Source: Periconia sp. R9002
Lineage: Eukaryota; Ascomycota; Dothideomycetes; Pleosporales; Periconiaceae
Reading direction: 5' to 3'
Length of the DNA: 18,776 nt
NCBI GenBank assembly: GCA_023627715.1
Contig: JAMAHW010000197.1
Coordinates: 1-18,776 of the forward strand
Shown here: positions 1 through 18,776 of the stretch, piece after piece
Numbering within the stretch: the stretch's first letter is position 1
Layout of the letters: the number at the start of each line of letters is the position of its first letter
Notes under the pieces: model-generated
What the model was told of the DNA's origin: nothing
Seen by the model: the letters and a program-made list of their open reading frames with translations, nothing else
Databases searched by the model: none
Position numbers and translations under genes: made by a program

Positions 1-1480
1 TATTTATTTATTTATTTATTTAAGCTTATTTAATTAATTAATAGTTTATTTTTTTTACTAGTAGTAGGCTATTAATAATAGGTAGAGGTTTTAATAGCAA
101 TAAAACCTATAGAAGAATAGAGTAAAAAACCTATACTTATATATTTAACTACTTAATTTAATAAGTAATATAGTAACTTAGCGTAGTTATTATAGTATTA
201 ATAACTACTTATACTAGGCTACTAGTTACTAAAGTATTATTAATTTATATAGTTAGTAGTAGGTAGAAGTTATAGAAGTTAGATAGTAGAAGTTAAATAG
301 TAGAAGTTAGATAGTAGAAGTTAGATAGTAGAAGCTAGATAGTAGATAGATTTATTAAAAAGACCTAGAATACTAACCTCTAAGTTTTAATTACGTAACT
401 AGTAAGTTACTATATATACGTTTCTAGCCTAAGATGTTACTATAAGATTTAAACTAGTATTAATACTATAACTAATTTTACTAATTAATTATAAAGAAAA
501 AAATACTTTAATAGGCTTTCTTATACCTAAATATAAAAATTATATTATAAAATTAAAATAATAAAGATTTAGGTAGACTATCTATTATTATAAAGAATAA
601 GTATTTAGCTAAGAGCTATATATATAAAAAAGAAAGCGTAATTTTATAAAATTATACTTAGAGATATTTAAAGTAGTTCTTAATAATCTAACTTTTACTC
701 TTAACTATAGGTAAAAGGTAGGTAGTAATAGCTATAATATAGATAGTAATAATAAAATAATAGTTACCTACTACTTATAAAGGTATATATAAACGCACTT
801 TACTATAGGTAAGTATAACTTAGTAAACTAAACTTTTATATCTACTTTTTACTATATTATTAATACCTAGTATTAACGTTCTTTCTATACCCTAATAAGT
901 ACTAATAAAGATTAAAGTATTTAACTATTTATTAACTATAGTATAATTAAAGGACCCTTAGTATTATAAAAAGGTAGTAATCTACCTCTTCCTAGATTAC
1001 CTTAATAGTAATTTATAGTTAAGGCATATTATTTATAGTATTATTAGAAAGCTAGAGATATATAGAATTACCTTTCTAAATAATAGCTAGGCACTAGAGA
1101 TATATATTTAGGGTTAGTAATAAATTATTAGTAGAGGCTAATTAAATCTAAATTATTCTCTAGTAGAATACCTTTTTTATAATAAATTAAAGAATCTAGA
1201 TAAGCTAGTAAGCACTTTTAAACGTTCTAAAAGCTAAGTATATAAAAGCTATAAATAGTTATACTAGGTACTATATATCGCCTATATATAGATATATAAA
1301 AAGAAGGAAATAACTAAGAGATAGTTATAACTAAACGTTATAACACCTAAGAGATAGAAAAAAGAGAAAAAAAAAACACTACTAATAAACTAAACTAATA
1401 GCTATTAGTAGGGGTATATAATAGTAATATATTAATTAAAACACGAAAAAATTATACTCTTACAAATCTATACTAAGCGT
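1..1480. mobile_element. AT-rich, RIP-degraded repeat relic
   Basis: About 1.5 kb made almost only of TA-rich sequence, with CpA and TpG nearly absent and TpA dominant. This is the composition left by repeat-induced point mutation, a fungal process that converts CpA to TpA in duplicated DNA. No open frame of useful length survives on either strand. The block was therefore probably a transposable element, but no family can be named and no terminal repeats could be identified. Composition changes abruptly near 1480, where GC-containing sequence resumes. The left edge lies outside the window. Confidence 0.75.
273..342. repeat. 14-bp tandem repeat, five copies
   Basis: Five head-to-tail copies of TAGAAGTTAGATAG (273-286, 287-300, 301-314, 315-328, 329-342). 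Copy two differs by G to A and copy five by T to C. A partial copy lies on each side. It is a small minisatellite inside the AT-rich relic. Confidence 0.9.
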
Positions 1481-1507
1481 GACATATAGCTGTATAAATC
1501 CGTACTC

Positions 1508-1539
1508 CTACGACTGTACATTGCTACGACTGTACACTG
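1508..1539. repeat. 16-bp tandem duplication at the edge of the AT-rich block
   Basis: CTACGACTGTACATTG (1508-1523) is followed directly by CTACGACTGTACACTG (1524-1539), one mismatch. It sits at the junction between the AT-rich relic and the decayed 3' end of the FAS gene. It could be a replication slip or a footprint of an insertion. Confidence 0.7.
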
Positions 1540-3011
1540 CACATTCACACAATGTTCACGCCTCTCCTCAACCATAACCTTGTGCCGGAGGTACAGGAAG
1601 AAAGGTTGTAAATAAGAATTATAACTTAGAGACATTCTACGCGAGCAAGAGGGTTCACTAAGAAACTCTGCTCTTCTTAAAATGCGTAAGGTGCCTTAGT
1701 CTTCGCCACGAATAGAGTGTTCGTTGCGATAGCTTTCTAGAAGTGTGCTATAGCCTTCCTTAACCTCTTTTCTGCTTTCTTGCAGTAGTCTTCATAATCA
1801 CCCCTAGTCAGCGTAGCATATAGATACGTAGGATGCACAAAAAGCGCCTGATAACCTTTCTAGCCAAACCCAAAAGATGTAACCAAGCATGCCTTAATCT
1901 TTACTATCTATATGCCCCTATAGAGAAACGCAACGTGCTCGTACTTCTTTAGTACAGCGTCAATATCATCAGCGTTAGTATTACCTAGTACAAATACAGT
2001 GTCCATAATTTAGAGGCAACCATTAACCATCCAAGCGCCAGCTACTCCCTTAGGATGCCCAGTGAGATACTTCTAACATATAGCTAAAACTAGATTCCCA
2101 ACTATTCGCCCTAGCTTTTGTAATTATTCATAAAGTACTCGAGTTTCGTTCTCATCGTTCTTCTTCGTTGATATCCTATGTATGGATGCAACCCCGATAT
2201 CATCAACAGTAAGCCCCCACGTCGCTAAAGCACCGCGCACAGGAGATATCCGGGTGTCATCTTTCCAGAAATTATTACCGAGCGCATACAAAACATCCTG
2301 TTTCTGCCTTTGCGCATTCCAGAGAATTTCTTATTTCAACTCCTCTACTTCATTCTCTTCGTGCGACACATAGGTCTCTGCAATATACTACAAGCCAACC
2401 TATACGCTCTCTCCTATCTGTTTCAAGCGCATGTCGCGTAGTCGACGCCGAAACTTTATATCAAGTACGGGAGGCTCCTTAGTCCAGGATGTCTCCCGTA
2501 CATTGGCCATAATACCCTGTCCAGGCGCTAGAATCGACCTACCGAATTTATCGCTGGCACCTTCTACCAAAGCAACAATCCCGTAGATAGGCAGCCCCAT
2601 CTTCAATGCCAGCAATTCCGAAGTAATAATTTGCATACCACAGCCTTCAGCTTCGACAAAACCGGATCTACTAGTAGAAGTAGGACAAGACATTTCTTTA
2701 GGATCTCTTCCGCAAGCGAGCTCTTTATTAACTTTAACAGTAGCCCCCATGTTCCCAAATTCACGTGCAATACTTTCGTAAAGATTATCGTAGCCCCCTA
2801 CTAAGCATGCCTTAGCCTTTCCAGATACGATATTCTCAAATCCTGTCTCGAGGCTCTCTAAACTTATGGCACATACGCCTACAGAGGTTCTATTAGGCCC
2901 GCTTCCAGAGAGTAGAAGAAGATTTATCCACACAGCAGCAGTGTTCAGGAATGTTTCTTGCAAAATATCGTTTTGCACTTCACGCTCGAAGTGACGGTCT
3001 TTGAATACCTT

Positions 3012-3014
3012 TTA
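3012..3014 (-). other. First premature stop in FAS alpha ketosynthase
   Basis: A TAA codon in otherwise continuous frame: G-G-T-E-A-L, stop, K-V-F-K-D-R, then Q-N-D-I-L-Q-E, all typical alpha-subunit sequence. It lies 46 codons before the ketosynthase cysteine, so a protein ending here would lack ketosynthase activity. A CAA-to-TAA change would be RIP-type (CpA to TpA). Confidence 0.85.
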
Positions 3015-6000
3015 GAGTGCCTCGGTTCCTCCAATACCTGATCCGATACAATTTCCAAATTCAGAGACATGGATGTGGCGATAAAACTCGTATGGGTCCG
3101 GGACGCCTGATGCAACTAGGGTTTCCGCTGCGCAAACAAGCACAAACAGCGTGCCTGGATCGACTTGCTGTATTATTTCGTCTGGAACTCCAAAATATGT
3201 CGCGTTCCAGTGGTCGGGAACGTGACCCGAGACTTGCAAGTACTTCATAGATTTAGGTATAAGGATCGTTGCACCCTTTTTGAAGCGCACTTTGAAGATG
3301 TCCTCGTCGACTGTGGGTGAGATAGTGACGTTTTCGCCATGGCGGAGCTTGAGAGCTTCGGCTGCTGCTCTTTGTATCTCAAGCGGTGCTAGGCTGTCTT
3401 GAATTGTGACTTCATGTAGCGTCTCCCATCTCGGGGATTCCCCGTCTGCTGTCTGGACAAGCCGGATACCGACCCTCTCTAGGAGTGTCTTTTCGTAGTG
3501 GGACTTGATGATATGCTCAGCTACGGGCTCGTTGGTTTTGGCGTCCACCCAGCCAGAGTACCATGTATTGTCAGCCACAGGGCCATTATGGCTTTTGATC
3601 AGCCCTAACATCGCTGCAAGTTCGATGCAGCCACTTGTGGAGAATTCTCCTTTCGCCTCAACTTCCCACCTTGTACGTGCATTGCCAAAGGGGTTAACTT
3701 CAGCAAAGCCCGTAATGACGACAGTCCTATCCAGATCCACCATATCCTGTAGTTGAGACGACAACGGCGCAATATCCCGGGAATAGTCTGGCAATATGGG
3801 AAACGGCAAAGTTATGCCTATTTGCGGCTGAACCTTCACGGTCGGCATGTTAAAGTCAATACCAGTGAGCTGTATATCATGTTTTGTGTCGTTGAGAACA
3901 GCTTTCCTCATATCGCTTTCCTCTTGTATGTTCGCTCGAAGAACGCGAAGCGTGTAACCCAAATTCTCAATCTCACTCAGACCTCCATTGAGATCAGCAA
4001 GAAGAGGGTGATCTTCGCACTTGTCGCGAATGTGATCAGTAAGGAGACCGACAATCATAAAAGCCATTTCCTGTGGGGAAAATGTGCGTGCGCCTAGCTT
4101 CTCTACATCTTCAGCAACAATGTCGTTTGTATCCATCAGGCCGGTCCCTCTGGTCCAGCCAATGACTGCACCGCAGAGGGACATGTAGCAACTCCAGCCT
4201 TCAGAAAACCACTTGTTAAACAAGACTTCTAACGCAGCCTTTGACTCAGCGTAGAGCCCATCCCCCCCAAACTCTCCATGATTTCCTGATAGTGGAAGAA
4301 CCACTTGAGCTGGTCGTGTGTCGATTGACCGGGTTTCTTTTTGGCGCTTCACAGCCCCAATTAAGCGGATGACATTTGTGAGCATCGCTCGAAGCGACAG
4401 TTCAGACTTCGAATCAATGTCGTCTACATTGCGACCATTGCTTGAGAGCGCACCAAAGGGAATGATATGGTCGAGATCCCATCCCATTCCGTAGATATAT
4501 TCCACGATGGCTTCGATATCCTTTCGACTGGCCTGATTGAAAGGTACAAGCTTCAACTGAGATGACGGAGTTCCATGTTCCATGTAGATCTTTTGAAAGC
4601 GTTTTGTCGTCTCAAAAGAGAATGAACTTGTACCAGCAACTACATGGGCTCCAGCACTCAGAAGGTGTTTTAGGACGGCCTCCCCAATGGAGTTCTCGCC
4701 TGCCCCAGTCAGAAGAATACATTTTGCTCTAAGCGATACGCCGTCGTTAAGTGACTCGACGAACCGATAGGTGATTACGTCGTCAAGCTGCCACTTGGTT
4801 CGTCGGAGTGTGCGGAATGTGTCTTGACGTTCGCCCGTTAATTGACTGGCGAGAAATTGAGCTTTTGTATGTAGTAATGGAGAGCCGCGGCGATAGATAG
4901 CTACGCTAGGATGATCTAGTAGAGTTGCTACCCATGATCGTGCTGTCGTGTAGCCAGGCCGGCTGATCTCCTTGTAGACAATCTTTCCCTGGGAGGTAAT
5001 CTCGGTAGTGGGCTGCGTGAATGGTGGTGCTATAGTAGCAACTGGAACAGCTGCCAGTGGTCTCTTGACCGTTTCAACCAGGTGATGATGTATCTCATTT
5101 ATGAGTTTACGATGCGATATATCGATGTGCGCATGCTTCAAGCGATACTCAACGACCTTCACCATGAGTTCACTTGGACAATTGGTGATTCGGCGTGCCA
5201 AGAATGCGGTTCTTTCGGCTCTCAATGCACTCGGAGTTCCTTCTAAACTATGGCAGAGCTCCAGAAGGTCTTGGAGAGCCCATGCCCAGGAGGAACTATA
5301 GTGACGTGCTTTGAGGGGATCAAACTTGTGGGCAATGCCTGTCATGAACGGTTCTCCAAGTTCCGTCTCCCAACTGTCCAGAAGAGAGCTCTTCTGAGAT
5401 AGTGCCGCATGCAGTTCGTTCTGAATAACATCCAGCTGATATAGATCCAGTCCAATGTCTTCAGCATCGAGATCAATCTTCTTTCGGACAAGGGCATTCT
5501 TTCTAGCGTTCATTTCATTCAGCTGCTCAGGACTCATGCCTGATGTGGCAGTTGCTTTTTGTGGATCTTTCATTACATGTTCCAACTTGAGACCAGCCAA
5601 AGATGCATACTTCATCACAATAGGCTCTAGGTACTCAACAACTGCTTTTTCGTCCTTGAGTCGTTCACTAGGTTGGTCCCCTACACATCTGAGTAGTAAA
5701 GTATCCTGTCTCCCTCTCGGAAGCCGCCATCGTGTTTGAAGCTGAATGCGTAATGCTGCAGTAGTCAAAGATGTGGGCATCTTCGATGAGACAAGACTCT
5801 CTACTAAAGCTTTCGTTACCGGGCCTAGACCTCCTTTCATATTTGGTTGGATTGTCGCCGCCAGCTCATCAAGCAACATATCCTCGGCGCTGTTTTGAAG
5901 GAAGCCAAATTCCTTTTCAAGATCGCCCACAATCTCGTTTTGTAGTGTCGATCTTCCAGCAGATAGCTTGCGTACCCTCGAATCCGTAACAATGCTGGAT

Positions 6001-6399
6001 ACGTCTTTCTTCAACCTGCGTGCACAAATAGCCTGTATGACATCTAAAGCGTGTACATGCTGGTCTTGAACTATTGTAGGTTCGTTTATCTCCGTAGAGT
6101 TCATTAATGACTGTGCAGTTTCCAAGGGCGGCACTGATTGGTTGTCCTCTTTCATCTCGTGTGACTCGTTGACTGATTTGGACGATATCTCGGTATCGAC
6201 CGGTGGCACGTTGTAATATAGCTCATCATGGTCTTTCTCGCAAGCGAGCAGTTGTTTGGAGCCCGTAAGGACCGGGTTCCAGGCATCTGGACTTTGAGTG
6301 ATCGTCCGCTTGAGCATGTTGAGCAAGGTAGTGCCCGGTCCAATTTCTACCACACGTTCCGCGTTCTGCGTTCTCAGAATATGATTCTGTGTTTCGATC

Positions 6400-6454
6400 C
6401 TGTAACAAAGGTCGGTTAGGTACAGTGATGCATAGTCCCGGCTAGAAAACGTAC
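6400..6454 (-). other. Intron in the FAS alpha 5' region
   Basis: A 55-nt intron with donor GTACGT, branch point CTAAC and acceptor TTACAG. It joins a P-V-R-W coding end to an I-E-T-Q start, which is the order expected for the alpha-subunit N-terminus. A second intron upstream is likely (GTACAA near 6527 to AAAG at 6482, branch point CTGAC), but with these borders the frame is off by one base. Either the borders are wrong or a small indel adds to the gene's decay. Confidence 0.7.
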
Positions 6455-6587
6455 CATCGTACTGGATATGTGAATTGATGGCTTTCCAAGTCGGTCAGCA
6501 GATACCTTCGCGATAATAGGGTTGTACCAACGCTAGTAGTTCAATCAGAAGTGTATGGGCCAGTTCTTGCTCGATTTCTGGACGCAT

Positions 6588-8230
6588 CCTGTCTCACAGT
6601 ATCAAGAAAAATCACGTCGGGTCAGAATTGCACGGCGTGATGTCCACAGATGGAATAAGTTTTTGTCCCTGCATGCATGTTCCATCACCTGATTGAACAC
6701 CATTTGCCCAACTACTAGCTCGTCCCCAATAACGACCGCCAAAAGCTCCATACGTAGTACTCCACGACAAAAAGGGTAGTCGTGCCCGATAATGCACCGT
6801 AGCGCTTTGTCAGTGAGAAAACAGGCAGTGTCTCTAGGATGGTAATACACCGATAGGGGTCGGGTATCCACAATAGGAAGTTGTGGAAGAAGGTAGAGTG
6901 GGGCTGCAAATTGTCGCCTGATCCAAATATACACGCAGCTTACGGAGAGTCGGTGGGCGCTAAAAAGCCACCCGTGTGGATGGTATTTTCTCTTCGGTCC
7001 GAATTAAATATCTTGGCTATTAAAGAGCTATTCGGGGTAGGGTTAACCTACTAGCGTATATAGTGTAATCTACAACTATATATATGCAGTATATATATAG
7101 AGGCTCGATATATATATTTAGCTATTCCCCTGTTCTCGTCAGTAATCCTATAGCAAGCGCAATTGTGTATGCACACCATGGAGACATTCTCTACATGCAA
7201 GTATTCTGTGATGTAACTCTTCTGGTGGAAGGACTACCGTTCCTCATTGGACGAGTTGCTGTCCCGGTTGTAAAATAGATTGGAGGATTTATGCCCTCAA
7301 TCACATGTATGATTTATTGAGATTTTGGAAAAGTTTCACCGGATGAAACGCGATATAATTCTAGCCAATGAAAAAATATTATTAAACTTGCACACGAGTG
7401 ACTGCGTTCTGGAAGCCGACTCCAGAATTCCTATGCTCTTTCTAAACTATGACAATAGTTTACGACGCGAAGTTAGCAAGATTCTTGCCCCATCTAGAGA
7501 GACCTCGCATATAGACTAGTATGGGATGGCTCTGCTTACCACCGTTAGACTATGTGGGTATGCGGCACAGCTCAGGAAAGAGGCTAATTGCGCCGGGATA
7601 GACTCTGCACACCGATTACTTTGCATGGTGATAGCGTCAACATACATGAATTGAGACGTGCATAAATGATAAGCAATAATGATAAACAATGAATGGCGAA
7701 ATGCAACACCCCACTGATCCACAGGATCTGAAACGGGTAAGGCGCCTAGTCGGAGGGAATCCGATTCTGGAATAGATATTCCGGACAGATTTGATCGGAA
7801 TTCTATGCTCCTCAAGCCCCCACATCAGTTCAGGATTTCAAGCATGTTCAATAGTATATCCAAGCCCTGCACAAACAACCGGTAATTGTGAATTCACCCT
7901 AGATAGTCTCAGAGTGGAGTATAGTCAGGCGAATAAGAGATACTGAGGAAGTCTATGAGTGCACGAAGCTTACCTGAAGCTCACCGTAGCTCACAGTGGC
8001 TATGGGTTTAGCGACCCAGAAAAGATCGTCCCAGCGTGAATTCAATTCCCGGCGCAGCTTAGGGTTCATCTAGAAAGAAGATTACAGAACTTTAACCCCC
8101 ACGAGCTGCTCGGCGAGGTTTGGTCATTTCCGATTTTGTGAAAGTTGAAAGTTTTTATTCTCAAGACAAATAATCCCATCCATCTCCACATCTATTTACA
8201 TTTTCACAACGTGATCAACTGGACCGCACC
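6588..8230. other. Intergenic region between FAS alpha and the acyl-CoA dehydrogenase
   Basis: This 1.6 kb separates two divergently transcribed genes and holds both promoters. Several open frames exist (the longest 110 codons, minus strand, 6602-6934), but none shows a recognisable domain, signal peptide or convincing start, and I do not call them genes. A TA-rich run lies at about 7075-7120. A palindrome cluster at 7750-7782 is listed separately. The last 120 bases before 8231 are pyrimidine-rich, as is common in fungal promoters. No FAS beta subunit is visible. Confidence 0.6.
7750..7782. promoter_or_regulatory. Two adjacent inverted repeats, possible regulator sites
   Basis: TCGGA, five bases, TCCGA (7750-7764) is a perfect inverted repeat containing CGG and CCG triplets in the layout bound by many Zn2Cys6 fungal regulators. 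Five bases later comes GGAATA-GA-TATTCC (7769-7782), also perfect. They lie about 450-480 bp before the acyl-CoA dehydrogenase start. Binding is inferred only from form; no regulator gene is in the window. Confidence 0.3.
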
Positions 8231-10408
8231 ATGAGTCTTCCAGCTGCTATTCAATCTGATACTACATCGGAGCTCCCAACTATTCCTGCTCCCAAAATTG
8301 TTAAAGATGTATCTCCGAAGCCCAATAACAATGGAAGTGACACTGCCCAGAATCAATTGCCAACTCTGCCTATAACCGGAAGCTCTATCCACGGCTTCTT
8401 TCAGCAGCCGCCCAGGCTCGAAAACGCTTACTTTGACGATCCCACCGTGCAACGGGCTTTGAAGGGTGGGTGATCTTTCACAAAACCTTACTTCCAGGCT
8501 GATTCTGATTACTCAGCGTTCTTGCCTGAAAATGTATTGAGATCCGTTGAATCAGACATGAGCCGCTTTGGAGGTGATGTGATTGCGCCTGAGATCTTTC
8601 AGAGCATCGCAAATGCCGAAAAAGATCTACCTTATGTACGCACATGGGACCTATGGGGTCACCGAATCGACGAGGTTGTACTTAGCCATGGGTGGCAGAC
8701 ACTGAACTCGAAAGCCGTGAACGAAGGGTGAGTTAGCATCGACCTCGTTTAAAGGAATTCCCCTTTCCTTTCAAATCCTGGTTAACATACCACAGACTCG
8801 TTGCCATACCATACAAAAAGCAATATGGGAGCTACAGCCGAGTCTTCCAATTCGCGAAGTGCGTCCCATTACTCACTAAAAACTTACATCACTGACATAT
8901 GAAGACTAAACCTATGGATTGGCTCTGCCGGGTCGACAGGCTACAACACCGCCTTTGCAGACGGAGCCTCCGCCCTCCTCCAAAAGTGCCTCAAAGATCC
9001 TTCTACCGACCCGACTATTCTCCCCATTCTCCAGGGAGCCTGCGACCGTCTCCTCACTACAAACGCCTCTGACTCATGGACTGCCGGCCTTTTTATGACA
9101 GAACGCACCGGCGGCAGCGACGTCTCCGGTATCGAAACCATCGCAACGTATGCACCCCTTACCACAGAGCAAACTCAATTCAAAGACAACAACGGCTACG
9201 AGCTGGGACCATGGGAACTGAACGGCTTCAAGTGGTTTTCGTCGGGGACAGAATCCCAAGTCTCGGTGCTTCTCGCGAAGACTCCGAATGGCCTTAGCGC
9301 TTTCTATGCACCGATGAGGCGCGAAACGGTGGATCACTGGGGGAAAAAGTCCATGGGGCTCAATGGCGTACATATCCAGCGTCTCAAGTCTAAGATCGGA
9401 ACGCGACCCAATACCACGGCTGAGCTTGAGCTTAGGGGGATGCGGGCGTGGCTGCTCGGGGAAGAGGGCAAGGGAGTACGCAGTGTAGTTACCGTTCTGA
9501 TTGTTACTCGTCTACACGTCGCCATCAATGCGCTCGGGTATTGGGCTCGTGGACTCGCTGCTGCTCGAGCTTTTGCTCGCGTGCGGAAAGTAGCACGAGG
9601 CATGACTCTGGTGGACGTTCCGCTGCATATGGCTGCGCTGGCGAGGGAGCATATACAGTACAGAGCTGCGTATATGCTTGTGTCTTTTGCGGGTGCTCTG
9701 CTTGGGAAATGCGAAGAAGATGGTAAGGATGATGAGCAGCCGTCTGAGCCTGTTTCTCTTGTCCCCAAGCGTCAGACCGAGGCACAGTTGTTGCTTCGTG
9801 TACTCACTTCTCCCATCAAGGCCATGTCAGCGCGGCTCGCCATGAGTGGCCTTGCATACGCTATGGAGTTTCTCGGTGGGGTTGGTGCTCTTGAAAACGA
9901 GCAAATGGATTTCAACATCGCACGACTATATCGCGATGTCAGCATTATGGGCATCGTAGATGGCACTACACAAACACTTGCGACAGATCTGATCACTGCA
10001 CTTTCTGGCAAAATGGGTCATACCACTTTGGATGTACTCGACCATTGGCTCAGTGCTAGCCTGCCAGCAACGGATGCCTTGAAGTTGGAAGTGGAGGAAT
10101 TGCAAAACGCGTGGAAGGTTCTGCGTGATGAAGTCTCCACTCAGTCTCAGCAACATCTCCTGACTAATGCGATCGAGGTCATGGAGAACTTTTACGCTAT
10201 CTTCGCTGGTACCGTTCTCCTTGCTGATGCTAACCTTGACTTGGACGTAACTGCAGTGGAAGTTGCTCGACGATGGGTACGAGCTTTATACACTCCAAAG
10301 ACAAGGCTCAGGCAGAATGGGGATGCGGGACAGCTGGCAGTTAACCAGCTCATCGTGTTTGGAGAGAAAGAGCGGTTGCAGGTTCCTGAGAGGGAGTTGC
10401 CGACGTAG
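8231..10408 (+). CDS. AidB-like acyl-CoA dehydrogenase family protein, four exons
   Basis: FAD-dependent acyl-CoA dehydrogenase superfamily, AidB branch, 670 residues predicted. Exons 8231-8465, 8517-8727, 8796-8858 and 8905-10408; all three introns have GT-AG borders (GTGGGT, GTGAGT, GTGCGT donors) and keep the frame. The start ATG sits in a good CACCATG context. Visible: an N-terminal AidB-type G-F-F-Q-Q-P-P (residues 55-61), the flavin-region signature M-T-E-R-T-G-G-S-D-V-S (from 234), K-W-F-S-S (278-282), and the C-terminal helical domain with L-G-G-V-G and R-L-Y-R-D. At the position of the usual catalytic glutamate (W-E-G in AidB) it has V-D-G, so Asp522 replaces Glu. There is an acidic insertion near residues 438-455. 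No peroxisomal C-terminal tripeptide or clear mitochondrial presequence is seen. The substrate is unknown. This is the only conventional gene in the window that appears fully intact. Confidence 0.9.
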
Positions 10409-11484
10409 GATCTCAGAGTCTTAGGCTAGCTCGCTAATATCTAGTTAAGTTTTTTTAGGATTGATATTCATACTATTCTACACTAGTTAACTAGAGATTA
10501 TACGAAGGTTGTGTATCTACTTGTGGACGCGATTCCGAATAACTTGATTACTGCTATAGACTTTCCTGCTACTTCTAAATATCTGGTGGAGTTTCGTGAA
10601 AGCTTCTAAAAGGTAGCTAAGTAAGCCGTGATCGCAAAGGCAGGCCGCCACCGGATCAAGAGCTGTCGATTCTCAATACCATCTATAGACCGTGTGAGAT
10701 GGTGTGAACAAGGCCGTCGATTACTTTGCTGAAAAAGCTACGTACTACGTTTTTTCCGATTAGAAAGTCTATAATACGCTGGTGGTAGAACTTTCGGCCC
10801 TGGATTATGATTTATAACTATTGAGGCGGCGCATGGTGGAGAAACTTCCGTATCTATAAGCCTGTATTACTGAATCTCTACGTTTTCATACCTCGTTTAC
10901 AGGGCGTCTTCCGCTGTTTGACTCTCACACATCCATTATTTACACTACCGCCATTGGCAAAAGAACGTACACCTCCCCCCCTTAACACAATTATTTTCAT
11001 GTCTATGCCCAACCTTCACTTCAATGCCTCAATCTTCCCCTCTTCAGATGACTCTAATCCCGCCCGCTAGATCGATGTTTCACTCGAGCACCTGAAATAA
11101 ATGCAACCCTATTTGTCCCTTTCTCCCAGGGAAGTTATTCATGCCTAGGGATTGAGTGGGAAAGGATGGAGCTTGTACATTCCAGGCGCTGGGGCAGAGA
11201 ATGGATCTGTAGGAACCCACAGCGCTGGATGTTAGCTGGGCATATGATTGTTTTGCACCCTATATTAGGATAAACTCAATGGGGCTGAGTGTTGATATCA
11301 GTATCCGGACTTGATTTGGTGATTTAATATGGTAATGATGTGTGTTAGAGAAGTGATCGCTTGACGGGTGACATGTATACTAGTGTGCACGTAACCTGGT
11401 AGTGATAAGGTAGTTAGCTGTCGCTGTCTTCATTCCGCTCGTCAACTTCATCCTTCTGAAACACTTGTCTGTTACTCCTTACAG
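10409..11484. other. Intergenic region, no gene recognised
   Basis: About 1.1 kb after the acyl-CoA dehydrogenase stop. Short frames in 10500-10800 are interrupted by several stops (mostly TAA/TAG) and could be a decayed gene, but I recognise no family. Pyrimidine-rich stretches lie around 10900-11110. The upstream exons expected for the MFS gene that follows are not found here. Confidence 0.55.
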
Positions 11485-11983
11485 GGCTGATCTGTGACTG
11501 CTGCGCGGTTCGCTGCCTTTGATTGCGATGGCGTTCTTAGTGATAGCCATGGCGGCCCAACCTTACATGCTTACATCTGGCCTGTTTGTGTACAGTCTGG
11601 GAACCGGATCGAGTGCGGCTCTGCGCTCGCTTTCTATTCACGTGATAGTAGGGAATCTCAGTCCGGATGTTGGAAAGCTGATGAGTGTGATCGTTTTCAC
11701 CAAAGGCATGGGAAGCATTGTGGCCGGGCCCCTGCTCAACGAGACATTCAAAACGGGCATGGATATGGGGAGCGTATGGCTGGGACTGCCGTTTCTGGTT
11801 TGCTGCGCCATGTATGCATTCGCGACCACGGTTACATTTATCGTTCGGATCAAAGATACAGACACCCAGCATGTGCAGGTCACTACGGAGGAAGAAGACG
11901 ACAAGGAAGAAATCGTAGTGGATGGACCGAATTCGGTACTCGCCAACGAAATGGAGCCGTTGCTTCGTCGCGCTGCGGCTTAA
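11485..11983 (+). pseudogene. MFS transporter, C-terminal exon only
   Basis: The sequence codes for the last part of a Major Facilitator Superfamily membrane transporter. Four hydrophobic segments are visible (about 11513-11575, 11576-11640, 11678-11740, 11777-11855), fitting TM9-12, followed by an acidic cytoplasmic tail (E-E-E-D-D-K-E-E) ending in L-L-R-R-A-A-A. The exon appears to begin after an acceptor CTTACAG at 11484. In that frame A-D-L is followed by a TGA at 11495-11497 and then L-L-R-G-S, a place where this family often has tryptophan. No N-terminal eight helices or earlier exons are visible upstream, so the gene is 5'-truncated and probably dead. A short product from the ATG at 11528 is possible but would not be a full transporter. 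Confidence 0.75.
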
Positions 11984-12065
11984 GGCAAAGCAACAAGTCC
12001 CATATCCCCTAGACTAGTAGAACACCAAAGTTTCAGTATGCCGGCCCAATTTCAACTTTTTATCT

Positions 12066-12482
12066 TTGCCCCGTCCAACACTTCATATTCGTAGTGGAGT
12101 TGTCACTGAATCCACCTATGTGCCCGGGTCTTCTGTTACGGATTTTACTAAATTGATTGAAGAAGAGTCCTTTCGTGTATGCAACAGTGAGCTCTGCATA
12201 TGTGTGGAGTGCACCTTTCTTAATAATCAACGCAAATATTCGAATGCTACCTATGGAGTCAGCCACAGCTTCGTGGCATTTTACTGCTCGTCTCACCAGT
12301 TCATTTCGGTAAGCGCGCCGAAGTCCTCAATGTCTGCGCGGCCGGGTATGAATACACTCGGATCCTTGTACGGAATCGCCAAATTGGAGAAGAAGAAGGA
12401 GCTACAGTCGCTAGCGAATGCGGCTTCACCCTTGCACATAGCTGCAAACACCATTCGCGCCGATCTACGCAAGGGCGCTTAG
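12066..12482 (+). other. Unassigned open frame
   Basis: An open stretch of 138 codons without an ATG near its 5' end; the first ATG in frame is about 87 codons in (S-S-M-S-A-R-P-G-M). It ends in a lysine- and alanine-rich segment (K-L-E-K-K-K-E-L). No domain, signal peptide or membrane segment is recognised. It could be an exon fragment or chance. Confidence 0.2.
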
Positions 12483-14341
12483 CCCCATCTACTGTACGTA
12501 TGCAGATCGGACCTCAACGCACTGGTTCTATCTCACGCTAGTAAGCACTTGCGGGATACAACCCGAATGCAGCGCGCAACGCTAACGTATTCCACCACGT
12601 CCCAACTATCTTACTGAAATCTGTGCGCCGGCACGCGTTCAATCAACAATTGCCATAGACGCCACTAAGACCCGCAAGGCCGGCCGGACAATCTGAGGGC
12701 CATTCTTACCTAATAAGTCTATTAGAGCCATAAAATCGATTACACAAGATTCAGTAATAGAATAGTAGAATTTCTCTTCGATGTTGCTGCGGGGGAATAG
12801 AATGCAGCGGAAACACTAAGCAGCACCTTAAATATATACCCTCATAGCGTCCGTTATCCGAGTCTAGTCCGTCGATTCCAGTCCGCCTATAGAACTCTAA
12901 TCTAAGTCTTAACAGCTCCTTATGTTTAAAATAATTATAGCGCGCATTATAAAAGTTAGCGTTGCGCGCTATACTATACAACTTTAACTAAATACTCTAA
13001 GTAAAGACCGCTACGGATCACCTATAAGGGCACTTTTAGACAAAATTAAGTTAGGTAGCTATAGTTACTCTTAACCTACAGTCGTACGTAGTAGTGATGA
13101 GTATCAGTTCCCATTATCTATACAGGTACGATTTTGAACGGTTGTAGATTTAAATAGAGTTAAAATAACAAGCGTTATCGTGGTACTATATTCTAATTAA
13201 AGAATAGTCCACATAGAGAGGAACACTAAAAGCTTACAAGGTTCGCTCACTCAGAACAGTCACCTTCTCCACTAGGATATAGAAGCGAGGTCCTTCTGCT
13301 GCTGACGCGAAGGGGCGCAATGCTAACTTCAAACGAGTGCGCAACGCAGATTTACAGCTAAGAGCGAAATTAGTATCCTCTCTCGACTAGTTCATGTGTT
13401 TCGGGCGCACTGACGCTGGGTACGTATTACCGTAATTCTGCTGACGTGCTGACATCGTCGCGTCATCCACCTATCTGTCTCTGCTGCATCACGTGATCTA
13501 TCAGGTTTTTGCGAGCAGACTTCTTGTCTTTCGCAGAAGGATGCTTTGCCATTTTCTGTTCGATAGATTTCTGTCTGTACGTCTTTTTCAACATGCTTTG
13601 TTTTCGTTCCCACTTGTAGGAAATAGGAAAAGTCCTTTCTAAATACTTTGCCTTCGCATCACCCACAAATCCGCACGCACTCTGATTGTTGCAACGTTTA
13701 TCTCAAATAGCTTACCAAGATAGTGTCGCATATTTAGGTGCGTGAAGTCACTATTGCTTCGCAGCCCGAGAAATGAAAGATGCTTTGTCAATTGACCCCG
13801 AAGTAAGTCCGTAGTTATTCCGTCAAGGGTTAGAGACAGAGCAGTGCCACATACACTCTAGGATACTATATCTATGAAGTGTATAACCCCGAGATAGTTC
13901 AAGATTTCAAGTCGTAATGATTATGCCGTTAGCTTTCATGGTCTTCAGAAATGCGGGCCAGCCCACCCAATTGATGGCGGGATGAACAAGCCTAAGCCAT
14001 GATGCACAGCGCACGCTAATGATGCACACATTCGGTTACCAACGATCAACTTCCTTCTCATATTGGTTGGTTTCACGTCCACAAATCAGATACAAAAAAA
14101 GTACACCAATATCACCTTTGAATGAACCAATCTTATCACTCGAGGTCAAGCAACTAATTACAAATAACGCCTTGGATTGTTGATAACTGCGATGATGTTA
14201 CTCCCCCCCAATTTCCACTGCCCTGTTTTCCAATCTGTTATGATTCAACGTAGGCCCTCAAAAACACCTCTAAGTGCTTTAATAAGCCCTTCATGCTACC
14301 ACCATGAGCTTTTTGGTGCAGGTGCAAAGGGCTGTCGAGGC
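12483..14341. other. Long region without a recognised gene
   Basis: From about 12710 to 13220 the sequence is AT-rich with many TA steps and a strong hairpin, like a milder version of the relic at the left end, so it is probably another old repeat. Between 13390 and 13670 (minus) two overlapping short frames are lysine/arginine-rich, but neither matches anything I know. From 13700 to 14341 I see nothing that can be called. Confidence 0.45.
12936..12973. repeat. Perfect 11-bp inverted repeat (hairpin)
   Basis: TATAGCGCGCA (12936-12946) and its exact reverse complement TGCGCGCTATA (12963-12973) flank a 16-base loop. The GC-alternating core stands out in an otherwise AT-rich stretch. It may be an end structure of an old transposable element. 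Confidence 0.8.
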
Positions 14342-14719
14342 TCAGCGGGTTTGGTGATCGATATCGACGAATGCATCTTGCAGTTGCTTTACTTGCATAG
14401 CCTGTTGCTTCAACCAACACTTGGATTCGGGAATGTCAATAGCCAGTGCCTCGGGGCCTCCCATAAAATTCCGTCCCATGCGCATCTCATCCACAGTATC
14501 CAATAGTCGGTCGCCGGAAACGACTGGCAACGGTATTAACCCATCGAGTAGTCGCCCTTGATTACGACTTTTCAATAACACCTCCTGCTGCAGGTATGTC
14601 CGCGCGTGAACGGTTTCCATGATGCTGGGTGTATATGATAGCATGCTCGCCCACCCACTCTGGAAGTCAATGCCTACAACGGCCATATTCCTGACTAATG
14701 CGTCGGTGTACTTGTTTTC
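14342..14719 (-). CDS. Unrecognised exon, hypothetical protein
   Basis: An open frame of 125 codons beginning just after a possible acceptor (CATCCAG, ending at 14720) and ending with TGA at 14342-14344. It contains an ATG at 14686. Composition is that of an ordinary soluble protein with mixed hydrophobic and charged residues, including an R-M-G-R-N-F-M-G-G-P-E-A-L segment and a helical, glutamine-rich end (K-Q-Q-A-M-Q-V-K-Q-L-Q). There is no signal peptide or membrane segment. I do not recognise the family. The sequence upstream is interrupted by stops, so this is either the last exon of a gene whose earlier exons I cannot place or a fragment. Confidence 0.4.
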   Translation of the reverse strand, partial: ENKYTDALVRNMAVVGIDFQSGWASMLSYTPSIMETVHARTYLQQEVLLKSRNQGRLLDGLIPLPVVSGDRLLDTVDEMRMGRNFMGGPEALAIDIPESKCWLKQQAMQVKQLQDAFVDIDHQTR

Positions 14720-15241
14720 CTGGATGAAACGGGTTCAAAGCGCTGTTGGGAGAGATAACAGTAACCCTACTGTGGCAAGCTGATGGAGTGAGCTGCGGAA
14801 AATTGATCTTGATTGTCTGTTCTGCAAAACCTTGGGTGGACTGGCTCTATATACACAGTTACGGGGAATGTTCCCAAGATCTTCCTTTCTCTTACACAGT
14901 AGCTGGAGCAATTGGGTTAGGGTTGCGCGGAAGCTTCTAAATTTAAACACTTTTGCTTATCGCAGACCTAGGGTTTCTTCTAGGCGAAAGTGAATCACCG
15001 TTGCCATCAAGGATTCCTGCGGTACACGTAAGCAGGGCTTTTTTGGTGAGTTAGAGAATTGACCTTCTAGTGTTAGCATATTAGCTTGATTTCTGGAGGA
15101 CTAGACCTCCACGACAGAGCGGAATGTAAGATTGGACATTCCCGCTACAGAAGTATCAGTAACTTACAAGCTAGCGGCAACCGTCTTGACATTCGCGAAC
15201 ACGTGGGGTCTCGAGATATCAGCTAATAACGAATATTTTCG
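14720..15241. other. Intergenic region with a telomere-like motif
   Basis: No gene recognised. GGGTTAGGGTT at 14914-14924 is a short telomere-type motif (telobox on the minus strand). An isolated GTAAGT reads on the minus strand at 15162-15167, after the predicted stop of the neighbouring micro-exon gene, and may be a relic of a further repeat unit. Confidence 0.5.
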
Positions 15242-16329
15242 TCACTTGGGCTAAACCGCCAGGAACAAACATTAGCTATCGATCAACACGGGGGGGTGGG
15301 GGGCAGGTCTGCTTAGAAGTAGGATAACTCACGTCCGTAAGTTCATCACTACGGACACCACTGCCACCCTATGCCACAGAGAGTACCAGGTCAGCTATCC
15401 ATATTCATGTATCGAAGCAACACTGCTTGGGGAAATTAGGTACGTACGCGCTACTCCGCCAGTAGGTGGTTGGTTAGCGATCTGTTACCATGATACGGGG
15501 GAGGTTACTTCGGAAGAGAATTACTCACACGCTATTTTGCCAGCAGCACTCCGTTAGCTATCTGCTTCTGCTACGAAAACGAGAATGCCATAGGAGCAAG
15601 TTTACTTAGTGTGAGGAGAGGAGGCCTGGGCGTCCGTATCAAGGAGGCTCTCCTTCCAGCTTGCCAGGCCGTGACACTCAGGAGAAGAGTTACTTACATT
15701 CTATTTTTCCAGAAGTATTAAGTTAGCTATCTACTGTAACCGGAGGGAATCTACTTAGCAAAAGAATTACTTACATCCTATTCCGCCAGTACCACTACAT
15801 TAGCCGTCTACTACTACAATAGGGAGGCGTCCGCTTGGCAGAAGAACTACTTACGAACTATTGTGCCAGCAGCACTATATTAGCTATCTCCTGCTGCTAT
15901 GAGAGGAAAGAAGAATTACTTACACCCTATTCCGCCGGTAGTACTACGTTAGCTATCTGCCGCTAACCAAGCCTACTTAGTAGGAGAATTACTTACAACC
16001 TATTCCGTCAGTGCTACAACGTTAGCCATCTACCGCTAACAGAAGAGCAAATCTACTTGGGAGAAGGTTACTTACACCCTATTTCGTCAGTAGCACTACG
16101 TTAGCTACCTGCCACAATCACAGTCATGACTTCACTTTAGAGCAGAATCACTTACGAACTATTTCGCCACGAGCAGTACATTAGCTATCTGCGCACTTCC
16201 TTTACCGGTTTATCCCAGAGATGTGTAGCTTACTCTGAGTTCGAGCGCTTTGCGCTGAGGTCCTTGACCGACGGGGGCAGCCAATACTGCCCCGATCATC
16301 ATTGAGAGAATAATTGGCGAGAAATGCAT
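15242..16329 (-). CDS. Predicted secreted peptide gene with nine single-codon exons
   Basis: Exon 1 (16329-16234) codes for a signal peptide, M-H-F-S-P-I-I-L-S-M-M-I-G-A-V-L-A, then A-P-V-G-Q and a basic stretch ending in R, and stops at a codon boundary on GTAAGC. Eleven introns follow. Exons 2-10 are three bases each: 16156-16158 TTC, 16076-16078 GGT, 15997-15999 GTT, 15924-15926 GGT, 15855-15857 TTC, 15775-15777 GAT, 15698-15700 AAT, 15529-15531 CGT, 15448-15450 CGC. Exon 11 (15333-15368) is 36 nt, open, Gly/Ser-rich at first. Exon 12 (15242-15250) is CCC AAG TGA. Introns are 75, 77, 76, 70, 66, 77, 74, 166, 78, 79 and 82 nt. Coding length is 168 nt: 55 residues plus stop. Every intron is phase 0, so skipping any exon keeps the frame. 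The adjacent CGT and CGC codons give a dibasic, Kex2-like site. No family is recognised. Splicing is predicted, not shown. Confidence 0.6.
15251..16233 (-). repeat. Tandem array of about 80-bp intron-like units
   Basis: Eleven units whose TTAGCTATCT-like core (plus strand) falls at 15272, 15391, 15474, 15554, 15723, 15800, 15880, 15949, 16022, 16101 and 16181, spacing mostly 69-83 bp. On the minus strand each unit has GATAGCTAAC, 18-21 bases, ATAG or similar, a variable region that is three bases in nine units, then GTAAGTAATTCT. Donors: GTAAGT seven times, GTGAGT twice, GTAAGC and GTACGT once each. Branch points: CTAAC, CTAAT or CTGAC. The best-conserved positions are exactly the splice signals. 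This resembles introner-like elements reported in Dothideomycetes, but tandem and separated by one codon. Confidence 0.85.
15623..15670. repeat. Nested hairpin inserted in intron 8 of the micro-exon gene
   Basis: GGCCTGG (15623-15629) pairs with CCAGGCC (15664-15670), and inside it AAGGAG-GCT-CTCCTT (15641-15655) forms a second stem. It lies in a roughly 89-bp extra segment that makes intron 8 166 nt long against about 76 for the others. It may be a small insertion. Folding would bring the splice sites closer together. Confidence 0.75.
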
Positions 16330-16517
16330 TGTTTTACTGCTTGGGATATTTGATGTGGTGGAAGAAGGTTCGGTCGATATAGACTTCAAGGTAGTTGCAT
16401 CCCAAAGGTGGAGTACTCTAAAATGTTCTGGTGCATGGGAACGGTGAATCATCCTATATAAAGACCCCTTCACATGCTCTCATTATTAGGGAACGACCAA
16501 TGAAAAGGTAGCACATA
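16330..16517. promoter_or_regulatory. Shared divergent promoter with TATA box
   Basis: Only 188 bp separate the ATG of the micro-exon gene (16329, minus) from the ATG of the terpene synthase (16518, plus). A TATA-type element at 16453-16463 reads TATATAAAG on the plus strand, 55 bp before the terpene synthase ATG, and CTTTATATAGG on the minus strand, about 125 bp before the other ATG. Either gene, or both, could use it. Co-expression is therefore plausible but not shown. Confidence 0.55.
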
Positions 16518-17647
16518 ATGTCCAAAACCTTAGTACCTGATGTGTTTCCTATGGAAAGCTATGTAGGAGGGCTTGTACAACTCATGGAAAAGATTGATTA
16601 CAATGATACGAACTACAGCCCACCCAATCGCCTTACTACACTGCAACACTGTTGGGTGAAGAGTGCACAGTACTTCGCACAGCCGGACATCCAGAAGGTC
16701 TTGAGCCTTGAACCGGCATTTCTCGGTTCTCGGCTTGCTACCATTGTCATGATGGTATCGTATAGCTGGAGCACGATACCGTTGGATGTGAAGATTGACC
16801 TGATCATCTACTATACCTACACGATTTTTCTCGATGACTTGCCAGAGGACTATTCCTCATTGATGGCCACATTCGGAGAGGACTGTTTTGCTGGTAGATC
16901 ACCAGAGCACCCATGGCTACAACTCTTCCACCAGCAAGCGCTGGCAACCACAAGGCATTACGGTAGCTATTGCCCACTGAATATTGTGCGTAGCACGTAC
17001 GACTATAAATCAGAGTCCACCCCAGTTAATAATGGGGCTAACGATTTATCTAGACTACCAAGGACTGTGGATCGAAAACGCAAAATTTGGGTGCTACCGT
17101 GGATCTCGATTGTACCCTTGGTTTCTTCGTCGGCTCACTGGTCTTGGGCATTCTGTGGGCGCGACACTTTTCCCATCAAAAGATTATGATGAACATGAGT
17201 TCTTTGGCGAAATGACTTCGGCGATTGCCGAAATAGAGTACTACGAGGTTCTCATGAACGACCTCGTGTCATTCTACAAAGAATTCGAGCACGAAGATAT
17301 GATTTTGGCCAAGAACTGCGCAAGAACATACGACATCAGTATCAGAGGCACTACAGAAGCTGATACAAGAGACACTTGAGTCAGTGGATCGAATCACATG
17401 CGTATTCAGAGAAAAGAGCGCAAAGGCTTCCAAACCGATCCACACTTTCATGCATGGCTACGTGACGTGGCATCTTTGCAACCAGCGTTATCGGATGAAG
17501 GAAATGGTGGAATTGCTTGATGAGGGCGAGCTCTCAGAAAGATTCCGGAAGTTCTATGAGCAGGCCCAAAATGTGGGACAGCTCCCGCTGGAGCAATGGG
17601 CCACTCCTTCCATCGAAGAATTGATTAAAGAGAATGTTCAGCCCTAA
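16518..17647 (+). pseudogene. Trichodiene-synthase-family sesquiterpene cyclase, disrupted
   Basis: Class I terpene cyclases of this family turn farnesyl diphosphate into a sesquiterpene hydrocarbon in the cytosol; trichodiene synthase is the best-known member, but the product here cannot be inferred. Family landmarks are present along about 360 codons: the aspartate-rich metal site F-L-D-D-L-P-E-D (D-D at 16833-16838), L-G-H-S-V-G-A, the second metal motif N-D-L-V-S-F-Y-K-E (17257-17283), and H-G-Y-V-T-W-H-L-C near the C-terminus. Two defects are visible. First, the intron ending at TCTAG (17053, branch point GCTAAC) has AT rather than GT at 17005-17006, where similarity places the donor; an upstream GT at 16990 would keep frame but drop conserved residues. 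Second, the frame shifts by one base near 17338, after Y-D-I. Similarity resumes in the next frame to the stop at 17645-17647. It is probably inactive unless these are sequencing errors. Confidence 0.8.
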
Positions 17648-17950
17648 TTCATCTTGAGAATGAGTTTTTTATCGTTTCGGAGAATGTTCTGCCAACCTAA
17701 TCGCCTGGCGTAATCTATATCGCTTGCGTCCTAAGAGATGGTGCTGAAGTGTTCTCAAGGAGCTAGGTAAATAAATATGTAGCAAGATATTTGGCTCCTA
17801 ACGACTAATGCTTTGGCTATGGTTGAAGTAGATTTTGAAAGCTTCATACCCAGCTCAGCAGCACCCTGCAATTAAACTGAGCTATGTAATCTGCGTGTAC
17901 GAGAGGATAGGAAAAATTGCATTGACTTATTCGGGCGTCGTAGAGTTCGC
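17648..17950. other. Intergenic, nothing recognised
   Basis: About 300 bp after the terpene synthase stop with no open frame or repeat I can support; it presumably contains that gene's 3' untranslated region. Confidence 0.5.
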
Positions 17951-18322
17951 TCATTGCTGGGTTAATTTGAAAGATTCTCTACCTGAGAAAAAGCTAATCT
18001 GAAACGTACATTTACCGTTCAGACAATTCAAATCGCACCCTGATAGAACACTGAGTGAGGACCGTGTAGGTGACCGCATACAGGATAATTCCGATTTGGA
18101 CTTGATGGTTGCACTGTCCACGTCCACGTCCACAGCTTGATCTGCTTGTGTTAGAGATCCGTCTATCTGACTTTCTTCGTCTGCAATGATGCGCAGATAA
18201 AAACAGACAAATCGGGCCATATAGCTAGCGTAGATTGCCTGACGCTCGGGGTTCTGTAGTCGCGCCAGCGGCCGCTGATCAATTTCAGTCTGCTGCGCAT
18301 CGGAGATGCTTCGCCAGCAGCG
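17951..18322 (-). pseudogene. Fragment resembling repeat-associated fungal DUF3505-type protein
   Basis: The minus strand is open for 123 codons after a double TGA at 18323-18328; the first ATG is at 18220. The segment R-P-L-A-R-L-Q-N-P-E-R-Q-A-I-Y followed by M-A-R-F-V-C-F-Y-L-R-I resembles, from memory, the conserved middle of large fungal proteins (DUF3505-type, zinc-finger or helicase-like) that are common in repeats. A short D-V-D-V-D-V-D run and a cysteine-containing tail (C-D-L-N-C-L-N-G-K-C) follow. The usual family protein is many hundreds of residues long, so this is at best a fragment. The family assignment is tentative. Confidence 0.35.
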
Positions 18323-18328
18323 TCATCA

Positions 18329-18776
18329 AGGTCTCACGACCCTTCCTGTGTTTCATTTCAACCTGTCGGTGCGCACCCACACAGCCACAAAGCCCGGATC
18401 TTCGCCCATTTCCTAGCGTCATAGCCTTGCTAATTCATCGCTTGAACTGGTTTAGCGACTGAACTCTATTCGCGCGGAACTGCAAGCTCCGTCTCACATT
18501 ACGACAGAGCATGTCCGCTTAAGCAATTGGCTAATTATATCCGCTACTTTGGCTTGTTTTAGCAGGCTGCTGTATGGAGAAGAAGATTGTAGTGCCTGTT
18601 TCCGGTTTAGGTCGTGTGAAACGTGATAAATTATTTGTGGGATTGGCTGCTTTGATGAGTGAAGAGATGGTTATATGAAGCGCTTATAGAGGCCCGCTTG
18701 TACTACTCTCAAGCTTCATCTGTTCATTTTTCCATCAGAGTCTAGTATTCGTTTAGCTTTTCATCTCGCCATCATG
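18329..18776. other. Right end, no gene recognised
   Basis: Open frames here are short. Minus-strand pieces such as T-L-M-T-L-L-A-K-H-L could be earlier, frame-shifted parts of the fragment at 17951-18322, but similarity is too weak to call. No tRNA, repeat or promoter is evident. Confidence 0.4.

Follow-up and report, generated by a model that had tools for sequence, protein, structure and literature searches.

A minus-strand gene in the window, by which we mean the whole 18,776-nt stretch of DNA analyzed here (contig C197, positions 1-18776, of a 42.9 Mb genome in 267 contigs), probably encodes a small secreted peptide whose core is spelled out by nine 3-nt exons, each contributing a single residue. 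This reading, first put forward in an initial annotation of the same DNA, is supported by the anatomy of the gene, by introns that are 52% identical to one another, by the retention of splice sites around hypervariable codons, by sister arrays elsewhere in the genome with the same specificity for 3-nt exons, and by read-through tails in the relatives of a NACHT-ankyrin gene that carries one of these arrays. For the gene in the window, we infer that the transcript is spliced in the living cell, also alternatively, and that the product is secreted and takes part in recognition.

Anatomy of the predicted gene

Inspection of the minus strand reveals nine sites in order from 16161 to 15448, each consisting of an acceptor, three bases and a donor (Table 1). 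The acceptors read ATAG in eight cases and GTAG in one, and the donors read GTAAGT in seven cases, GTGAGT in one and GTACGT in one. In the model, every one of the 11 introns runs from GT to AG and contains a branch-point match (GCTAAC, GCTAAT or GCTGAC), with 21-23 nt between the branch A and the intron end in each case. Each boundary lies in phase 0, such that the spliced frame amounts to 168 nt, or 55 residues and a stop, with the product reading MHFSPIILSMMIGAVLAAPVGQGPQRKALELR, FGVGFDNRR, GGSGVRSDELTD and PK in that order. The initial annotation had described nine ordered sites of ATAG type and GTAAGT type, branch points about 20 bases before each intron end, and eleven phase-0 introns leaving 56 codons including the stop; its coordinates and counts are correct on each point. 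The signal peptide in exon 1 was called by eye, without a predictor. The open frame that contains exon 1 (16210-16473) gave no Pfam match, and a search for relatives of the predicted 55-residue peptide returned one candidate and none at E ≤ 10.

Table 1. Predicted features of the minus-strand gene in the window and single-codon exon arrays of the genome.
Feature	Position	Strand	Content	Basis or remark
Exon 1, putative signal peptide and pro-region	16234..16329	-	MHFSPIILSMMIGAVLAAPVGQGPQRKALELR	open over 96 nt; donor GTAAGC in phase 0
Single-codon exon	16156..16158	-	TTC (F)	splice-site chain and frame
Single-codon exon	16076..16078	-	GGT (G)	splice-site chain and frame
Single-codon exon	15997..15999	-	GTT (V)	splice-site chain and frame
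Single-codon exon	15924..15926	-	GGT (G)	splice-site chain and frame
Single-codon exon	15855..15857	-	TTC (F)	splice-site chain and frame
Single-codon exon	15775..15777	-	GAT (D)	splice-site chain and frame
Single-codon exon	15698..15700	-	AAT (N)	splice-site chain and frame
Single-codon exon	15529..15531	-	CGT (R), donor GTGAGT	splice-site chain and frame
Single-codon exon	15448..15450	-	CGC (R), donor GTACGT	splice-site chain and frame
Exon 11	15333..15368	-	GGSGVRSDELTD	36 nt, spliced frame
Exon 12	15242..15250	-	CCC AAG TGA (P K stop)	spliced frame
Eleven introns	within 15251..16233	-	66-166 nt	spliced frame
Introns 1-6	16233-16159, 16155-16079, 16075-16000, 15996-15927, 15923-15858, 15854-15778	-
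Introns 7-11	15774-15701, 15697-15532, 15528-15451, 15447-15369, 15332-15251	-
Intron 8	15532..15697	-	166 nt	normal unit and ~90 extra nt in 5' half; splice sites intact
Array on C197 (window)			9 codons	F G V G F D N R R
Array on C124			7 codons	C T C V P C G
Array on C142			4-5 codons	G ? Q A C
Array on C211			24 codons	SPPDSIYDGYRPPSIYDSPYGRRV
Array on C161				E R I
Array on C214				E D, perhaps one more
Array on C78			7 codons	M D Y G A V D

The introns of the window array resemble one another, with a mean identity of 0.523 between intron cores versus 0.294 in one shuffle (10 of the 11 introns, with the 166-nt intron 8 left out). The extra ~90 nt of intron 8 is possibly a small insertion; no terminal inverted repeats were found in it. 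The array also appears to trail off at its 3' end. Exon 11 starts like a further single-codon exon (TAG GGT) with GGCAGT at the donor position, and exon 12 resembles TAG and CCC followed by a donor that has lost its GT (AAGTGA). Both exons therefore seem to be decayed units, such that the array would have come to its end through decay and the exon 12 unit would supply the stop.

These marks raise the question of whether the whole locus is degenerate, that is to say, an array that once worked, has decayed and is no longer expressed. The GTACGT donor of the ninth codon, the donor lost in exon 11 and the additional DNA in intron 8 all point in this direction, as do the neighboring fatty acid synthase and terpene synthase genes, which are spread over more than one frame and are possibly broken. 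Against this, all 11 introns of the model keep a donor, a branch point and an acceptor, and the frame is open throughout, so we regard a dead locus as rather unlikely, though it is the least unlikely of the rival readings. Decay at this locus is compatible with a coding reading of the other arrays.

Ordered 3-nt exons exceed chance expectation

The initial annotation held that so many boundaries would hardly agree by chance, and this is borne out by shuffling and by genome-wide counts. When the window was shuffled 300 times with its dinucleotides preserved, chains of sites reached a maximum length of 1 in 221 shuffles, 2 in 77 and 3 in 2, versus 9 in the real DNA. Genome counts were taken as pairs of sites, where one array yields many pairs, with the reversed pattern as control. 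Across the whole genome, TAGNNNGTAAGT pairs (two successive TAG-NNN-GTAAGT sites 40-70 nt apart) numbered 33 versus 0 in the reversed control. Relaxing TAG to AG (AGNNNGTAAGT) gave 35 versus 0, with one of the 35 pairs, on C41, outside any array, and allowing Y/R freedom with codons ending in C or T (YAGNNYGTRAGT) gave 36 versus 0, with 8 versus 0 at a shorter gap. The array in the window is not a product of chance.

The excess is specific to an exon length of 3 nt. Genome-wide, pairs of 4-nt exons (2 versus 8 in the control) and of 6-nt exons (1 versus 2) showed no excess, and 3-nt exons with a longer gap occurred 2 times versus 6 in the control, one of the two being a unit of a known array. 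A looser search across the genome for a single 3-nt exon after one intron returned 44 matches versus 6 in the control. Of these, 36 lie in arrays, and the remaining 8 lone exons, AT-rich by eye, show no excess over the 6 control matches. We also scanned for chains at all exon lengths of 1-12 nt in a sample of 88,826 bases, which was picked to include the known arrays together with five further HET loci. Seven chains were found at 3 nt, in contrast to three in total at the other eleven lengths, all of them antisense to the C211 array; none of the five further HET loci carried a chain. Taken with the codon pattern and the protein tails described below, these counts make spliced, coding arrays the most likely reading. 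As a separate observation, the sole 6-nt match, at C29:82672-82756 on the minus strand, consists of two 6-nt exons flanked by GTAAGT introns.

Sister arrays in the same genome

About seven arrays were found in the genome, on C197, C124, C142, C211, C161, C214 and C78 (Table 1). Three belong to putative secreted-peptide genes, three lie in or beside genes of recognition type (NACHT-ankyrin, HET and kinase-HET), and one, on C214, is unplaced. By eye, the genes on C124 and C142 are built like the gene in the window, with a signal-peptide exon, an array and a short final exon or stop. The putative C124 peptide would read MRTLAIFIATMVIPAIGGPVAPPGQLPTLDQRQT, then C-T-C-V-P-C-G, then PEKAA and a stop, and the putative C142 peptide would read MRSLMLFGLLMPSMAFALPSPSKPANDNVQGLEIRQ, then G-?-Q-A-C, then a stop, with joins and signal peptides in both cases assigned by eye. 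Their signal-peptide exons end in ...LDQRQT or ...LEIRQ, and that of the window gene ends in ...ALELR, again as read by eye. The C142 frame is not clean, since one unit (L033, about 5160-5150, minus strand) has TAA where the acceptor TAG is expected; the codon of this unit may be skipped. An epimerase at C124 has its best named matches in Sordariomycetes, at 53-56% identity; these matches and those of the C211 receptor in mixed ascomycetes place the genome in Pezizomycotina, and no more narrowly.

The C161 array is located 5' of a HET domain, in the same orientation, and array and domain would presumably form one gene. The C78 array, with seven consecutive 3-nt exons, is placed between protein-kinase and HET exons. 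Its introns are barely alike (identity 0.311, versus a mean of 0.290 and a maximum of 0.310 in 8 shuffles), one acceptor is a weak AAAAG, and three of its seven introns have a branch-point match. Since its exons are nevertheless all 3 nt long, recent repetition does not explain them, and C78 can be read as an old array in which splicing upholds the exon length. Between arrays, comparison of intron units gave 15 pairwise z-scores of -2.7 to 2.7, calculated from single units of which at least two were cut off register; these values are too weak, and a common origin of the introns across arrays is not claimed. Genome-wide, HET-domain matches number at least 152, and NACHT matches with E up to 0.1 number 56. 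The HET repertoire, together with the fungal fatty acid synthase alpha and trichodiene-synthase-like matches in the window, assigns the DNA to the filamentous ascomycetes.

With these arrays in hand, we can weigh the notion that the window array is a non-coding tandem repeat, such as a minisatellite or an array of small RNA genes, that merely resembles a spliced gene. A tandem repeat of period 73 is indeed detected at 15912-16113, and the unit lengths are like those of tandem snoRNAs. Yet no Rfam match up to E 1 was found in the window or in loci L032, L035 (C211) and L037, the window contains no tRNA, and six stretches examined for unusual fold stability, three of them off register, gave z-scores of only -0.65 to 0.54. 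A non-coding repeat also fails to account for frames that are phase 0 on both sides, for the 3-nt spacing kept between near-unrelated introns in C78, and for the protein tails described below. We consider it the least probable of all the alternatives, and scarcely credible.

Codons vary while splice sites are retained

The predicted codons and the introns around them differ sharply in their pattern of variation. For the 24 units of C211, intron columns show 0.153 transitions and 0.042 transversions per site and pair, whereas the first and second codon bases show transversions of 0.522 and 0.464, a level reached by 0 of the 76 intron columns. The third codon base varies by transitions only (12 C, 12 T). 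At the splice sites, variation is confined to two of the six donor columns (0.08 in each), while the acceptor is invariant. The same contrast is seen for C124 and C197, with transversions of 0.54-0.57 at bases 1-2, 0.09 and 0.15 in the respective introns, and zero at base 3; intron columns that reach the codon level number 2 of 74 in C197 and 2 of 79 in C124. The C197 comparison covers eight of the nine codons, with the unit that has the 166-nt intron left out.

All 40 single-codon exons of C211, C124 and C197 have C or T as their third base. This pyrimidine rule is not universal, because the smaller arrays (C78, C161, C214 and C142) each have some codons with A or G in third place. A codon with a third-base pyrimidine is never a stop, and such codons cover 15 amino acids. 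Third-base transitions reach 0.52-0.57, near two-state saturation, versus an intron average of 0.15-0.21, and such an excess requires either that the third base is free within constrained introns or that another cause is at work. We read the pattern as diversifying selection on the amino acids with a silent third base, although the third-base pattern may also stem from splicing that directly requires a pyrimidine there, or from the replacement of entire codons by some mechanism.

The codon pattern bears directly on a reading in which one large intron is removed by recursive (ratchet) splicing, with the AG-NNN-GT sites as stepping stones and the three bases never reaching protein. The sites are laid out as recursive splice points would be, and conserved acceptors and donors would be expected under this scheme. 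Bases that are not used should, however, drift at the intron rate, while bases 1-2 show 0.46-0.57 transversions against 0.04-0.15 in the introns; the third base lacks transversions altogether, and the spacing is 3 nt only. The NACHT-ANK precedent from truffles, in the accessible text of the reports discussed below, moreover has codons that are alternatively spliced. Recursive splicing is accordingly very unlikely in our estimation.

Origin and growth of the arrays

The initial annotation proposed tandem duplication of an intron together with its codon. The proposal fits C211, where all four unit pairs with an intron distance below 0.06 share the same codon, but adjacent C211 units are no more similar than distant ones, so that duplication in tandem is one possible process. 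Among the 15 C211 pairs at intron distances of 0.06-0.12, 0.60 of the base-1-2 positions differ. Taken together, codons seem to travel with the intron when blocks are copied and then to diverge far faster than it does.

An opposite order of events would have introns inserted at each codon boundary of a once continuous coding stretch, making the codons older than the introns. The extent to which C211 codons differ between introns that are only 6-12% apart fits this order, as does the lack of greater likeness between adjacent introns. An ordinary coding stretch, on the other hand, would not give C or T at 40 of 40 third positions, the near-identical introns share their codons, and one C211 stretch has no copies scattered through the genome. 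Such an origin appears distinctly unlikely to us. It is compatible with splicing today, and because insertion at the origin and later decay both agree with the main reading, the probabilities that we attach to these two alternatives overlap with that of the main reading.

Introner-like elements were considered as the source of the copies and set aside. A search of the whole window array against the genome DNA, in which only the best candidates were scored, matched only the array itself, one 80-base C211 stretch found copies only inside the C211 array, and the six folded stretches revealed no unusually stable structure. In the accessible text of PMC4457414, PMC8469720, PMC9024468 and PMC12403724, related multiplied introns are described in fungal genes as introner-like elements and sister stwintrons of ascomycetes. 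The arrays share with these systems the multiplication of related introns within fungal genes. In contrast to introner-like elements and sister stwintrons, which are scattered over many genes, the copies found here lie only within each array searched.

A NACHT-ankyrin array and the tails of its relatives

The longest array, on C211, is found where the ankyrin exon of a NACHT-type gene ends. Domain matches include NPHP3_N (3.9e-40) and Ank_2 (1.2e-59), and a NACHT match of 2.7e-05 whose 24.5 bits fall under the 26.7 cut-off in one search, with 28.1 bits, above it, in a second. After the array, an ankyrin-like frame, TPIRRAKELGHEAVVRLLLGDG as read by eye, runs to a stop; this copy may be truncated, with the frame stopping soon past the array. 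Translated in frame, the 77-nt introns of C211 read like VSEPTLSLAHTSMELIANPGVSGCYSV and then a stop. The first intron of C211 itself is 75 nt long and has an early stop, such that read-through would end after 12 residues.

Of 7,993 proteins scored against the C211 protein, 3,470 are relatives at E ≤ 1e-10, and the 120 listed (P0121-P0240) were examined. A C-terminal tail of 27 residues is present in 11 of these 120. Its 27 codons correspond to a 77-nt intron, a 3-nt exon and the G of GTAAGT, after which a TAA stop follows. The tails were filtered for a start like VSE, VSK, VSR or GSK and for S or R before the last residue, and the last residue itself was left unfiltered; it is L, M or V in 11 of 11, which implies a hidden codon with T as its third base. 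A DYxY-like exon end followed by VS, the reading of a GTAAGT donor, is seen in 33 of the 120 listed relatives. Other tail lengths occur, and P0154 (ending YSE) and P0233 (ending YSG) would imply a purine. In record P0146, the residues RIRARDYPYHRYDRPYG stand ahead of the tail and are possibly correctly spliced single codons.

The listed relatives, 120 of the 3,470, come from mixed ascomycetes; no displayed name is Tuber, with many rows nameless. The organisms named for the 11 tailed records are Phaeosphaeriaceae sp. PMI808 and Monosporascus sp. mg162, with Podospora australis, Lasiosphaeria hispida, Elaphomyces granulatus and Geoglossum umbratile further named among the 33, most others being nameless. 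Judged from these protein records, the layout at the C211-type site seems to be conserved, with public records reading through it. NACHT-ankyrin records with the tail, from other fungi and from metagenomes, thus probably end in a translated intron and lack their true C-termini. The tails speak directly for arrays of the C211 type and would extend to the gene in the window by analogy.

Relation to known genes and a proposed mechanism

The initial annotation knew of no described run of 3-nt exons in any fungal gene, and here it is contradicted by what is reported of the nank (NACHT-ANK) genes of Tuber melanosporum. Citing Iotti et al. 2012, the accessible passages of four papers describe codon-sized microexons that are alternatively spliced (PMC4986451, PMC3689799), 3-bp long microexons (PMC10197012) and dozens of 3 bp mini-exons (PMC9815663). 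C211 shares with nank both the gene type and a run of codon-sized exons, 24 in its case. The predicted gene in the window would likewise have several phase-keeping 3-nt exons between spliceosomal introns, but its 55-residue product is too short for NACHT or ankyrin domains and is a putative secreted peptide. The passages on Tuber nank make no mention of codons ending in a pyrimidine or of the contrast between codons and introns. Within a literature search that left most subscription papers outside, we found no single-codon exon arrays other than those of T. melanosporum NACHT-ANK, and no report of such arrays in secreted-peptide or HET genes. The general kind is known from truffle receptors, then, and the gene class of the window array was not found in print.

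Other systems with small exons are less close. In its accessible text, PMC11121469 says that functional microexons are undescribed in filamentous fungi, yet it has Iotti among the earlier reports that it cites. The Xlr2 gene of Trichoderma virens from the same source has a microexon in a filamentous ascomycete, here a single 20-nt exon with no codon array. KEX2-processed repeat peptides and fungal RiPP precursors, as described in the accessible part of PMC6339444, also have a signal peptide followed by a short core, and basic residues flank the core of the predicted window peptide (QRK and NRR). In contrast to the KEX2 repeat peptides, the gene in the window would have a single core without repeats (by eye), with each residue in an exon of its own. 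Secreted, fast-evolving products with numerous small exons and a presumed role in host interaction are likewise encoded by the micro-exon genes (MEGs) of schistosomes and the bicycle genes of aphids, where the exons are small and not single codons; MEG and bicycle introns are not known to be recent copies of each other.

Under the reading that we prefer, exon 1 would encode the signal peptide and a short pro-region, the variable core F-G-V-G-F-D-N-R-R would come from nine 3-nt exons set between copies of one intron, and two short exons would complete the frame. The spliceosome would take out each intron singly by intron definition and so join the codons. PMC12403724, in its accessible text, sets the intron recognition of these fungi against exon definition. 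Under intron recognition, a 3-nt exon need not carry two complexes simultaneously, and short introns, with their near-perfect donors and fixed branch points, could plausibly be taken out step by step. Any single-codon exon could be skipped, gained or lost without a break in frame or a new stop, because each would be one phase-0 codon, ending in C or T in the long arrays. The array may thus be a device that alters a short recognition peptide residue by residue, through unit number and codon evolution and probably also through alternative splicing, as reported for truffle NACHT-ANK. Our best guess for the product is a fast-changing recognition or interaction peptide, because the other arrays that can be identified by their domains sit in or beside recognition-type genes. 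A more speculative extension, which we think unlikely, is a general peptide-diversifying device of fungi, where arrays of NNC/NNT single-codon exons grow by duplication, are spliced combinatorially and serve receptors (NACHT-ankyrin, HET, kinase-HET) as well as secreted peptides, possibly the self/non-self signals of those receptors.

What is new here are the arrays in secreted-peptide and HET genes, the pyrimidine rule and the signs of breadth across ascomycetes. These findings suggest that codon-sized exon arrays are not restricted to truffle NLR genes. Judging by protein records, several other ascomycetes may possess the NACHT-ankyrin version as well, masked by gene predictions that continue into the first intron. 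Genes of this kind are likely missed by standard annotation and short-read mapping. The contrast between retained splice sites and hypervariable codons makes two matters testable, namely how the spliceosome copes with so many 3-nt exons and whether single codons are alternatively spliced to give a varied set of recognition peptides.

Neighborhood of the predicted gene

A trichodiene-synthase-like gene (16518-17647, plus strand) starts about 190 bp from the peptide gene and is divergent from it. Its Pfam matches lie in 16518-17189 and 16984-17379 across several open frames, and it may contain introns or be broken. A fatty acid synthase alpha piece (2400-6353, minus strand), with acyl carrier, helical and ketosynthase matches in two open frames, may be truncated or broken. 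The first 2000 bases of the window are very AT-rich, with a GC content of 0.207 in the first 1000 bases and 0.326 in the second, which we take to be like DNA after repeat-induced mutation in fungi.
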